The position numbers were made by a program, and so were the translations under genes. Positions 43,864-46,691 of a stretch of 48,181 bases of DNA are shown here, piece by piece (the stretch's first letter is position 1; every line of letters starts with the position of its first letter). The notes under the pieces are model-generated. The model did not search any database. It saw nothing but the letters and a program-made list of their open reading frames with translations, and was not told the origin of the DNA. Source of the DNA: a virus. Location: positions 1-48,181 of IMG/VR virus record IMGVR_UViG_3300040801_001020. The stretch is one strand, 5' to 3'.

Positions 43864-44532
43864 ATGGAATATTATGTTTATGGGTATCTTAAAGAGGATG
43901 GTTCCCCTTACTATATAGGCAAGGGTAAAGGAAACCGCTACAAACAAAATCACGGCTACCATCGACCACCCCTAGATGAGTCACGAATCAAGTTTTTTGA
44001 GAGTAACCTATCAGAAGAAGACGCATACAATCTTGAAATACACCTAATCGCTTCTTATGGTAGAAAAGATTTAGGCACAGGGACTCTTATCAATAGAACG
44101 GACGGTGGTGAAGGTGCGTCATCAAACACAATGATTGGAAATACTAATGCTGCTGGTAATAAGGGTAAGCCCAAATCAAGCTCCCACAAAAGAAAAATTA
44201 GCGAAGCTCTCAAAGGCAAGAAAAAGTCTGAAGAACAAAAATCCAAACAATCAGCAGTTATGAAAGGACGTACTCATCCTGACGATGTAAAAAAGAAACG
44301 TGCCAAGTCAATGACTGGTCTAAAATGGTGGCACAAGGGAACTGAAAAAACTCGCAGTAAAGATTGCCCAGGACCTGGGTGGATTCAGGGGCGGGGTAAG
44401 ATATATAAACGTAAGGACACTACTGGCTATCGTTGGTGGAACAACGGTACGGATATAGTACGCAGTCCCGAATGCCCAGGACAGGGCTGGGTAATTGGAC
44501 GGAGCTTATCTAATAATGACGTGGTACTATAA
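43864..44532 (+). CDS. GIY-YIG homing endonuclease with NUMOD-like DNA-binding region, 222 aa
   Basis: The GIY-YIG nuclease core is at residues 1-90: YVYGYLKEDGSPYYIGKGKG with the two tyrosine motifs, the following Arg in GNRYKQ, and Glu in NLEIHLIASYG, then LINRTDGGEG. Residues about 98-150 are lysine-rich and match NUMOD3-type helices (HKRKISEALKGKK, EEQKSKQSAVMKGR, DDVKKKRAKSM). After this come two copies of a WW-(H/N)-(K/N)-GT...CPG-x-GW...GR unit (about 156-178 and 190-213). Such proteins cut target genes and spread their own gene. It is free-standing, as I see no intron boundary in gp46. The ATG is leaderless by position. The 3' end overlaps the next gene by 17 bases. Confidence 0.85.
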   Translation: MEYYVYGYLKEDGSPYYIGKGKGNRYKQNHGYHRPPLDESRIKFFESNLSEEDAYNLEIHLIASYGRKDLGTGTLINRTDGGEGASSNTMIGNTNAAGNKGKPKSSSHKRKISEALKGKKKSEEQKSKQSAVMKGRTHPDDVKKKRAKSMTGLKWWHKGTEKTRSKDCPGPGWIQGRGKIYKRKDTTGYRWWNNGTDIVRSPECPGQGWVIGRSLSNNDVVL

Positions 44533-44953
44533 GGGAAAGGAAGTGACTGAACTCCCAGAGGACTGCGAAGCATTCGTTTATATTATTCATAACAACACCA
44601 ACCAACGCATGTACGTGGGCAAGAAACTTGCCAAGTTCAAGCGTACCAAGCCTCCGCTCAAGGGGAAGACGCGCAAACGCAGAAGCAGCGTGGAATCCGA
44701 TTGGAAGGAGTATTGGGGTTCAAACGATCATCTCAAACAGGATGTGGAAACACTGGGCGCACAGGAGTTTACTCGTGAAATATTATACTTTTGCCCCTCT
44801 CGCGGGGTTGCCAGCTACCTTGAAGCCAAGGAGCAGTTTGATCGTGGGGTTCTTGAATCCGATGATTACTATAATGGTATTATCAACGTGCGCATTGGGG
44901 GCTCCAATATCCTTAGAGAAAGTCTAAAAAATCTACATCATGGCAAAGCATAG
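44516..44953 (+). CDS. GIY-YIG-type putative endonuclease, 145 aa
   Basis: I choose ATG 44516 (MTWYYKGKEV). The frame also opens at TTG 44495, which is less likely. Residues 19-36 give a divergent GIY-YIG pair: FVYIIHNNTNQRMYVGKK. Next come a basic stretch (KPPLKGKTRKRRS), SDWKEYWGSNDHLKQDVETLG, FTREILYFCPSRGVASYLEAKEQF with a plausible catalytic Glu, and DDYYNGIINVRIGG. I recall very similar small proteins from T4-like aquatic phages, annotated only as putative endonucleases. It overlaps the preceding GIY-YIG gene. It lacks the NUMOD region, so the two are different types rather than a duplication. Target unknown. Confidence 0.8.
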   Translation: MTWYYKGKEVTELPEDCEAFVYIIHNNTNQRMYVGKKLAKFKRTKPPLKGKTRKRRSSVESDWKEYWGSNDHLKQDVETLGAQEFTREILYFCPSRGVASYLEAKEQFDRGVLESDDYYNGIINVRIGGSNILRESLKNLHHGKA

Positions 44954-44959
44954 GCACAC

Positions 44960-45007
44960 AACACTAAAACATAAAAACCATATAACACTAAAACATAAAA
45001 ACCATAT
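44960..45007 (+). repeat. Two perfect tandem 24-base A-rich repeats
   Basis: Unit AACACTAAAACATAAAAACC plus ATAT at 44960-44983 and again at 44984-45007, with the first five bases of a third copy. It lies directly after the GIY-YIG gene and before the structured region. Unstructured A-rich sequence here could be a spacer, a protein-binding iteron or a promoter upstream region. Two units are too few to tell. Confidence 0.9.
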
Positions 45008-45042
45008 AACACACAGAACCCTGACAAACAGTACTCAAGGTT

Positions 45043-45519
45043 GATGGGCCGGAAACTCCATACCATCCAGTAAGCTCGATAACAAGAACTCTGCTGAAGC
45101 TTTTACTGTTAGCGAATTCCAGGCACTACCCGCAAGGATGCCAAAACGCGCTGAGAACCTCAGCACCGTTTGCTTGGTCTTAATGGTTGATTGGTCACTG
45201 ATAAGTTCCTATGAGTGTATTGAAGCGAGACACTCTTAAAAGTCGGTACAGGTTGGGTAAGGCTAGAGCCCAAGGAATCGTGACCCCAAAATACCTGTCT
45301 TTGAACGGTTAAGCAACTCGTAAGAAAACTTTTCCTTTTTTTGAAGCCCCTTATCGGGCTTCTCATGGCGTCACAATCTGTAAGAATGATCTCCTTTAAA
45401 CGCCTATCCACGGCAATGTATCAGAAGAGATAACTTTGTCTAACTAGGGATTGAATGTGTGAGTGCTAACGAACACATGAAGATCCCGCAGTTAGAAGAC
45501 CCCGCGTTAGCGGGTGTCT
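45043..45519 (+). ncRNA. Candidate large structured RNA, class unknown
   Basis: In this gene-free stretch (44954-45536) I find many local inverted repeats. GATGG 45043-45047 pairs with 45063-45067. CAGTAAGCT 45068-45076 pairs with 45098-45108 with a two-base bulge. GGCA 45122-45125 pairs with 45139-45142, enclosing CC-GCAA-GG with a GNRA loop. GCTGAG 45150-45155 pairs with 45159-45164, GAGTGT 45213-45218 with 45230-45235, ACAGGT 45248-45253 with 45293-45298, and GAAGCCC 45343-45349 with 45356-45362. A nested three-part helix (45440-45444/45491-45495, 45447-45451/45483-45487, 45455-45460/45473-45478) precedes a bulged nine-pair hairpin 45497-45519. The GNRA loop favours the plus strand. No group I core, tRNA or tmRNA was recognised. 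Ends, strand and function are uncertain. An origin of replication is an alternative. Confidence 0.45.
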
Positions 45520-45536
45520 AGACATATGACGGCAGA

Positions 45537-45770
45537 TTAAAGTTGTTCGACAACCTTATTACCTGACTTACGTTTTAGGTAATCGTCAATAACTTCCACC
45601 GCAAGGGCACGTTCTGAGCGGCTCATCAACATGGCGTCTTGCCATGAAATACTACCACTGCTATACACGGCAATCTCGATGATGCTCTTTTCCAGGGATT
45701 TTGCTTCCGACTTCAGTCGATTGATTAGTTTTACGATTTCTTCTGGGTTTGCTGACGCGAGGAAGCTATG
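45537..45770 (-). CDS. -1 frame C-terminal extension of tail chaperone (gp51-position)
   Basis: A 77-codon frame that has no start codon of its own near its beginning. It is open only from about 27 bases before the slippery site and ends at TAA 45539-45537. Read after a -1 shift, the joined protein continues NFF-HSFLASANPEEIVKLINRL, then SLEKSIIEIAVYSSGSISW and SRSERALAVEVIDDYLKRK. It is helical with a conserved-looking YSSGSISW turn. In lambda and many phages the tail chaperone is made in two forms, with the longer one carrying a T domain after a -1 shift. This extension sits where T4 has gene 51 next to gene 26. The shifted product would be about 358 aa. Coding is supported by coherent amino acid pattern and abrupt stop. 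Confidence 0.75.
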   Translation of the reverse strand, partial: HSFLASANPEEIVKLINRLKSEAKSLEKSIIEIAVYSSGSISWQDAMLMSRSERALAVEVIDDYLKRKSGNKVVEQL

Positions 45771-46612
45771 AAAAAATTTACAGGGTCGAAGCCAACCTCA
45801 TGGTCAAACTCATGCTCGCATTCTTCACACTTCATGCGCATGGTCTTGTTGATGCCTATCTCATTGATTTCGGATATTTTGTCTTGCACAGCATGCCCCA
45901 CATCGCTATCACAGTTCTCCATGAACTCACGAATGGCGTTTCTGTCCTTGACCACAAAATCTTCACCTTCAGGATCTGTGCCTGCAATGGTGCTCACACT
46001 GTCCACAATCAGATCAAAATTCAAGGCGCTCAACTTCATGAAGCTGTCATTAAATGCCTTTAACTGTGCCATTTCGTCTGTAATAGACCCAATGCTTTGC
46101 AAGCTTCTGGTGCTTTGAAAGTTGGCAATCCCGGCTTTAACTGATGACTCATAGCTATAGGGTCTGACTTCAATCTCCAGCCCGTTTGCTGTTTCCAGTA
46201 CATAATGCTGCTCCACAACCTGCATGGTGCTCAGGCTGTCTTCAATGCTAGCGGTGCCGGTTACGGCGGCATTACACTCAGGACACGTGGCGTTGATATC
46301 CATTTCATCGCCATGTGTGGCGCTCTGTATGGCCACTAGCAGTGTTTCCACATCGTTTGAAATCATGGCTCTAGGTGCCTTAACTTGTGGCACACAACTT
46401 TTAATCACTTGTGCTACAGCCTCACCGTTGAGCAGAGCATCAGGATTTTTCATGATCATTTCGTCGCGGGCTGTCATGCTGTACACCGCCAGTTCACGAT
46501 TTTCTGGCAGATCCACCACTGTATCGTCATAGTAGATACCTTGTGTGGGCAACCCAACATATAGCTTGGGACTGCGGTAAAAACCCTGGAGTGGGTTGGT
46601 GTTCTGTGTCAT
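45731..46612 (-). CDS. 26: Tail assembly chaperone/baseplate hub protein, gp26-like, 293 aa
   Basis: I choose ATG 46612 (MTQNTNPLQGFYRSPKLY), with AGGAG eight bases upstream; the longer frame begins inside a promoter box. The N-terminus has YVGLPTQGIYYDD and LPENRELAVYSMTARDEM, typical of the T4_baseplate (gp26) family. Two CxxC pairs (CPEC near 125 and CEEC near 265) probably bind zinc. NDVETLLVAIQSATHGDEM precedes the first. The last 12 residues after the slippery site are specific to the unshifted form. Adjacent to the tape measure gene, though on the other strand; such chaperones keep the tape measure soluble and recruit tube subunits. The gp26 match is from memory of the family. Confidence 0.8.
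   Translation of the reverse strand: MTQNTNPLQGFYRSPKLYVGLPTQGIYYDDTVVDLPENRELAVYSMTARDEMIMKNPDALLNGEAVAQVIKSCVPQVKAPRAMISNDVETLLVAIQSATHGDEMDINATCPECNAAVTGTASIEDSLSTMQVVEQHYVLETANGLEIEVRPYSYESSVKAGIANFQSTRSLQSIGSITDEMAQLKAFNDSFMKLSALNFDLIVDSVSTIAGTDPEGEDFVVKDRNAIREFMENCDSDVGHAVQDKISEINEIGINKTMRMKCEECEHEFDHEVGFDPVNFFIASSRQQTQKKS
45770..45779 (-). promoter_or_regulatory. Programmed -1 frameshift slippery site
   Basis: Minus strand AAATTTTTTC. In the chaperone frame the codons are (GT)A AAT TTT TTC, giving two overlapping canonical X-XXY-YYZ heptamers: A-AAT-TTT (45779-45773) and T-TTT-TTC (45776-45770). Both lead to the same joined peptide NFF-H. The zero-frame stop follows 13 codons later. 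I see no strong pseudoknot downstream and no Shine-Dalgarno-like stimulator at 10-14 bases. Confidence 0.75.
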
Positions 46613-46636
46613 ATTAAAACTCCTGTTAATCAACCG

Positions 46637-46644
46637 GATAAATA
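46637..46644 (+). promoter_or_regulatory. Late promoter box GATAAATA toward tape measure gene
   Basis: Plus-strand GATAAATA preceded by TTAAT-N4-CG, similar to the TTAAT-N4-TG of the two extended leftward promoters. Five bases later is ATG 46650, the start of a 13-residue open frame. The expected RNA starts near 46650. Confidence 0.65.
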
Positions 46645-46649
46645 CTCGG

Positions 46650-46691
46650 ATGGTGTGTGTCATTATTTATCACCGTAAAAACAGCATTTAA
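46650..46691 (+). other. Possible leaderless mini-ORF, 13 aa
   Basis: ATG at 46650, stop TAA at 46689-46691, peptide MVCVIIYHRKNSI. It would start exactly at the predicted late transcript start. It ends 12 bases before the tape measure ATG 46704 and could load or time ribosomes. It may equally be chance, since it overlaps the opposing promoter. Confidence 0.25.
46664..46671 (-). promoter_or_regulatory. Late promoter box GATAAATA toward tail chaperone
   Basis: Minus-strand GATAAATA with predicted start near 46658, giving a leader of about 46 nt that includes the AGGAG site before ATG 46612. It points against the plus-strand box at 46637-46644, so the two transcripts overlap by a few bases and each initiates inside the other's transcribed region. 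Confidence 0.65.

Follow-up and report, generated by a model that had tools for sequence, protein, structure and literature searches.

Comparative evidence for a large, apparently undescribed phage RNA with co-varying direct repeats

The locus and the parts of the RNA

The window analysed here is a whole virus contig of 48,181 bases (IMG/VR record IMGVR_UViG_3300040801_001020), in which the region under study occupies positions 44954-45536 (583 bases). This region is gene-free and is flanked by plus-strand GIY-YIG genes on one side and minus-strand genes on the other, with transcripts that converge. The SegE-type GIY-YIG gene (44495-44953, plus strand; PF19835, E 4e-33), which lies upstream of the RNA described below, is itself preceded by another ORF for a GIY-YIG-like homing endonuclease (43864-44532, plus strand; phrog_314). 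Downstream of the region are a small ORF (45537-45668, minus strand) and the convergent neighbour, a T4 gp26-like baseplate gene (45731-46663, minus strand; PF12322, phrog_150). As a side remark, phrog_447 gives the family of the SegE-type gene the name 'NAD synthetase', which is repeated in many public phage records; the Pfam assignment to PF19835 indicates that this label is wrong.

In our opinion, positions 45023-45519 very likely hold a conserved, stand-alone gene for a structured, non-coding RNA of about 500 nt, read from the plus strand; the evidence is comparative and there are no transcript data. This span, which we call the class I phage RNA, is delimited by the alignment of homologues over it, by covariation and by the 3' module, and it runs from a conserved 5' block to a terminator-like hairpin. 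The first ~70 bases of the region are a variable leader outside the RNA proper. In the window this leader contains two tandem 24-nt copies (CACACAACACTAAAACATAAAAAC) at 44955-45002, which are absent from the homologues inspected. Many members of both classes distinguished below (e.g. L018, L010, L003, L062 and L028) have, between SegE and the RNA, a short leader hairpin of conserved type (GAC-ACCAA-GTC or similar); it is not present in the window, and it is possible that it serves as a processing or start signal.

All parts of the RNA are plus-strand. Helix 1 (45043-45067; 45043-45047 with 45063-45067) lies inside the block of highest conservation, CAAGGTTGAYGGGCC, is 95% paired and shows GC/AU double changes. 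Helix 2 (45119-45177; 45119-45125 with 45171-45177) is 99.1% paired, has double changes at all 7 pairs and encloses helices 3 (45130-45132/45135-45137), 4 (45145-45148/45167-45170) and 5 (45151-45153/45159-45161); in some members the whole domain (45119-45177) is swapped for other sequence. Helix 6 (45213-45235; 45213-45218 with 45230-45235) is 98.4% paired, all six of its pairs are double-changed, in up to 22 of 32 sequences, and three to four pair types occur at most positions. The core (45248-45298), also supported by covariation, consists of helix 7 (ACAGGT/ACCTGT) around helix 8 (GGGT/GCCC) and the conserved loop AAGG-CAGA; the R1 model built from it scores the window at 85 bits, the window being among the R1 training sequences. 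Further 3' come direct repeat 1 (CA-A-CTC-GTAAG-AA, 45314-45326), a hairpin (helix 9, 45342-45363; 94.8% paired, 5 double-changed pairs) and direct repeat 2 (CA-A-TCT-GTAAG-AA, 45374-45386), the two repeats having the same five-base block, N5. The 3' module begins with a long interrupted hairpin (45439-45496), the stem of which is conserved through the exchanges CAAUC/GAUUG, CCAAC/GUUGG and CUAAC/GUUAG. The terminator-like hairpin at 45497-45519 closes the RNA; its position is fixed while its sequence is exchanged in a compensatory manner, and T-rich sequence often follows.

An earlier note, made from the sequence alone, had placed the region after two GIY-YIG genes and between converging transcripts and had counted at least nine inverted repeats. 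Both statements held, and thirteen such repeats are now listed. The nested helix of 5+5+6 pairs which it reported at 45440-45495 held and is slightly larger (MFE 7+6+6+2 pairs, 45439-45496), and so did the bulged nine-pair hairpin directly after it (45497-45519); these two are the conserved 3' module, with its terminator-like character. The claim of a GNRA loop on the plus strand is weak: the MFE loops are GCUA and GUUA, and only GCAA at 45132-45135 fits. The plus orientation that the note derived from this loop did hold, but through the G-U exchanges in homologues. Folding of the single sequence gives only a moderate excess of stability over shuffles (z of -2.5 on the plus and -2.9 on the minus strand). 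Structure alone is therefore unconvincing, and homologues were needed to settle the matter.

Covariation and distribution among homologues

The covariation analysis rests on alignment A1, comprising 32 diverse members of the subtype to which the window belongs and chosen by repeat similarity, with a consensus structure from RNAalifold. That consensus has 46 pairs, 32 of them with compensatory double changes, and 97.1% of its cells are paired. Cells in which both sides have changed number 326, compared with 93.6 +/- 8.4 in shuffles, and the covariation score of the structure is 0.614 against 0.214 in shuffles. When the 3' partners are slid by 1-3 columns as a control, the score drops to 0.07-0.11. 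It must be admitted that such slid controls favour the consensus somewhat, because the structure came from the same alignment; however, the contrast far exceeds that effect. GU and UG exchanges are read on the plus strand, and hence the RNA strand is the plus strand.

There is no conserved reading frame among the 32 members, in which the longest stop-free run extends over 50-108 of ~125 codons. We also considered a protein-coding gene, and it is ruled out by the lack of a conserved frame, the compensatory pattern, indels in the alignment that break the frame and the absence of a protein homologue. Thus the claim of the earlier note that the 583 bases contain no convincing gene held. It had proposed an undescribed phage RNA, to be checked by an Rfam scan and by covariance in homologues and to be refuted by a protein homologue. 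The scan returned no match, the homologues gave abundant compensatory changes and the protein homologue is absent, and with no Rfam or BLASTN match and a conserved structure the proposal is supported.

To collect homologues, IMG/VR was scanned with two proteins as queries, the gp26-like one and SegE, and this yielded 125 loci. With the stretch from the window as query, nhmmer returned some 30 related loci at E values between 1e-41 and 1e-5, and their orientation relative to SegE is uniform. A pattern taken from the most conserved 5' block retrieved 47 IMG/VR stretches, nearly all of them with the RNA by profile and from contigs of up to 349 kb, and two core patterns added many more. In total, profile matches occur in at least 270 of 337 loci (some of which are overlapping stretches of single contigs), on contigs of up to 354 kb. 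The gene neighbours differ between carriers (Nudix, gamma-glutamyl cyclotransferase, endonuclease or SegE), as expected if the RNA is an independent gene. We consider it as good as established, on comparative evidence and without transcript data, that the RNA very likely represents a large, apparently undescribed family common to many aquatic phages. Some divergent members (L127, L142, L171, L132, L151, L129 and L138) keep the 5' block, and in some cases the core too, without the direct repeats; in L127 and L142 inverted repeats are found where the direct repeats would sit.

No match at gathering score was found with any of the 4227 models of Rfam 15 (which include GOLLD, ROOL, OLE, HEARO, introns, RNase P, tmRNA and 6S) either in the 48-kb window or in 23 loci that represent both classes, and permissive searches with E up to 5 gave chance-level matches only. 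ARAGORN detected no tRNA or tmRNA in the whole 48-kb window. BLASTN of eight segments against the 50,697 phage records of INPHARED, and two exact patterns run against GTDB genomes, returned no match. Isolates whose gp26 or SegE genes are related (Melnitz, phiN3, Variovorax V45v66, marine virus AG-345-O18, Phosso, PA5oct and Atu_ph07) gave nothing significant in profile and covariance searches. The literature searched, which did not cover subscription journals and most preprints, holds no description of the RNA. Two of the cultured phages merit a separate remark. In Sinorhizobium phage Phosso (469 kb), 1 kb of gene-free DNA close to gp26 and gp46-like genes (L177:22284-23297) is rich in inverted repeats; Rfam gives no match there, BLASTN no other match, and neither the profile nor the model of class I detects it. 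The giant Pseudomonas phage PA5oct has ~660 bases without annotated genes and with several hairpins near a gp26-like gene (L178:21529-22191).

Other phages of the gp26 group, which lack class I, have a sequence-distinct RNA between segE and gp26. This class II RNA (core GCTCTGAGAAAAAGCAACC) has the same layout as class I, namely a doubled motif, a hairpin and the 3' module; it is present in at least 120 IMG/VR stretches (L028, L038, L041, L050, L062, L116 and others are examples at the SegE-gp26 slot) and has no Rfam match. The class I core model misses class II, and common descent of the two classes is therefore not shown. A motif check of 45 gp26 loci assigned 28 to class I, 13 to class II and 4 to neither; among gp26 loci, the sequence of at least L005, L034 and L046 ends inside the slot or short of it, and the 3' module or class II sequence is present in L034 and L036. 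By appearance only, it seems likely that an RNA in this slot is obligatory in the phages sampled through gp26.

Two direct repeats with one variable block

The motifs xA-CUC-N5-A and xA-UCU-N5-A are the direct repeats on either side of the hairpin in the 3' domain of the RNA. Co-varying repeats of this kind were absent from the earlier note. Because some later sets, A1 included, were picked by repeat similarity, agreement between the copies was recounted without any identity criterion, from profile alignment. N5 is the same in both copies in 187 of 187 distinct sequences and takes 21 forms, while shuffling gives a mean agreement of 23% and a maximum of 32%. This set requires both anchors to be present and may hold some sequences of class II character which the profile also aligns. 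Because many of these sequences are relatives of one another, the 187 cases cannot be counted as independent events. When mutual information was computed over 40 members, no columns anywhere in the RNA depended on each other more strongly than the repeat-identity pairs. For class II, an unbiased comparison of the windows flanking the hairpin found at least 7 shared bases in 62 of 94 members, against ~16% between different members.

The surroundings of N5 follow other rules. In A1 the two bases preceding the repeat agree in 31 of 32 members and CTC versus TCT differs in 32 of 32; an invariant A borders the variable block on each side. Between L247 and L256, which are 90% identical, ACATG has become ACGTG in both copies together, with no compensating third site. 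ACATG is by far the commonest form of N5, being frequent in class II too, and this dominance implies that N5 is not entirely free. No complement of N5 was found in cis within the RNA by a permutation scan, by neighbourhood counts or by per-column pairing in 116 members. In 12 carrier records of up to 349 kb, most of them fragments, the complete motif, with the pyrimidines left free, is present exactly two times in each record, both inside the RNA, and these records contain no full-length complement of the N5 motif and no additional copy on either strand.

Proposed mode of action and known RNAs

We suggest that this is a stand-alone, trans-acting phage RNA of ~500 nt, terminated by its own hairpin module, in which both copies of the motif would be docking sites for the same partner. 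Since the identity of N5 is kept between the copies, we infer that both repeats likely serve one shared partner. The invariant CUC/UCU would keep the two sites apart and distinguishable, and the partner would engage them either successively (a switch or a re-annealing step) or simultaneously (two contacts). Whether N5 is recognized through base pairing is an inference that we hold with no more confidence than its opposite. The same balance applies to the overall reading of an RNA with two equivalent docking sites acting in trans, probably via base pairing, for which the partner is inferred and transcript data are lacking. As there is no complement of N5 in the RNA and no full match in the records searched, a partner that base-pairs would have to come from the nucleic acids of the host or be a strand made by copying the RNA. 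No such partner has been found, and a sequence-specific protein would fit the identity equally well; by inference, the candidates that remain are nucleic acid of the host, a copied strand of the RNA and a protein.

The protein alternative is indeed a possible one. A dimeric protein of the phage or the host, specific for the repeat sequence and co-evolving with it, would bind both repeats; this agrees with a motif duplicated around a hairpin and with the invariant A that borders N5 on both sides, and it explains identity without a complementary strand. However, 21 variants and a simultaneous change in close relatives would need a specificity that shifts easily, and no protein gene neighbours the RNA constantly across contexts. 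We regard template realignment as unlikely. Here the repeats would be an A-B-A' pair as in DRT10 or telomerase RNA, with a nascent strand re-annealing from copy to copy while a polymerase copies the segment between them into repeated or circular copies; alternatively, the RNA would be a decoy for such a host enzyme. Identity kept with sequence left free is the signature of DRT10 (PMC12632851), and the idea accounts for the absence of a complement in the RNA and the searched records. On the contrary, no RVT_1 reverse transcriptase is present in 20 phage records, several of them >200 kb, although the host could still provide such an enzyme. A unit of 48-70 nt with a stable hairpin would have to be copied, whereas DRT10 repeat addition is undetectable with a 20-nt B; there is no DRT2-like endless frame (20 of 107, compared with 21.8 in shuffles); and the fixed CUC/UCU and the matching preceding bases are left unexplained.

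The remaining alternatives are weaker. Gene conversion or slippage between the copies could keep them identical without any function, and direct repeats around a hairpin are known to slip easily, those discussed here being 50-70 bases apart. But conversion would homogenise CTC and TCT, which differ in all 32 members inside identical flanks, and the bases just outside the repeats are not homogenised either; this explanation is already disfavoured and very unlikely. Just as improbable is a DNA element, such as an origin or an iteron-like site, in place of an RNA. Paired direct repeats beside a hairpin do resemble iterons, and there is exactly one locus per searched record, but compensatory changes with plus-strand G-U pairs, a terminator-like 3' end on the same strand and a constant orientation relative to SegE speak against it. 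Translational bypassing as in T4 gene 60, with matched codons around a gap, was also considered and rejected: there is no conserved frame, and the identity extends over five to eight bases, not a codon.

Returning to the docking-site reading, a bolder version would unite classes I and II in a superfamily that acts via two identical, lineage-specific address tags, usually with one RNA per phage and, in the gp26 group, at a core locus that is conserved. The RNA would then be either a programmable two-site guide or a template on which the nascent strand jumps between the tags. As a joint claim we hold this to be less likely than not. If true, the RNA would act, as a guide with two identical tags or as a jump template, in a way that is not known from phage RNAs so far. 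Irrespective of the mechanism, the family is a large and, on comparative evidence, well-supported addition to the RNAs of phages, and its carriers include giant phages and T4-like aquatic ones. Covariation of the identity type is a rare and strong mechanistic clue, suggesting that something reads both tags alike, and methods for pair covariation, which seek complements, would miss it.

How does this RNA compare with known ones? The pRNA of phi29 is also an untranslated phage RNA; its interlocking loops are complementary, not identical, and its size and structure differ from those of the RNA described here. The earlier likening to GOLLD or ROOL held in part, as a likeness of kind only. With these large ornate bacterial and phage RNAs (PMC12286853) our RNA shares a large multi-helix structure, a place in gene-free phage DNA and an unknown function, and it meets the criterion of a large phage-borne structured RNA (~500 nt, covariation, viral contigs), yet this alone confers no membership. 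It matches neither Rfam model (the window with E up to 5, and diverse members), and it has paired direct repeats. In the DRT2 ncRNA a looped stretch is copied repeatedly (PMC12632851). Short repeats bound that copied stretch. In contrast, our RNA has no stop-free concatemer frame (20 of 107, as in shuffles), and no reverse transcriptase was found. The closest parallel is with the templates of the DRT10 ncRNA and telomerase RNA, in which short segments adjoining stem-loops are conserved as identical copies (PMC12632851). Here, however, the segment between the copies is longer and contains a hairpin, and the locus is a phage core locus rather than a defence operon. The criterion of a reverse transcriptase is not met (0 of 20 carrier records), and direct equivalence with DRT10 is unlikely given this absence, the unit length and the fixed CUC/UCU. 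Nevertheless, DRT10 RNAs require that A equals A', not that either has a fixed sequence (PMC12632851), and this A-B-A' identity criterion is met in our family, in 187 of 187 sequences with 21 variants.
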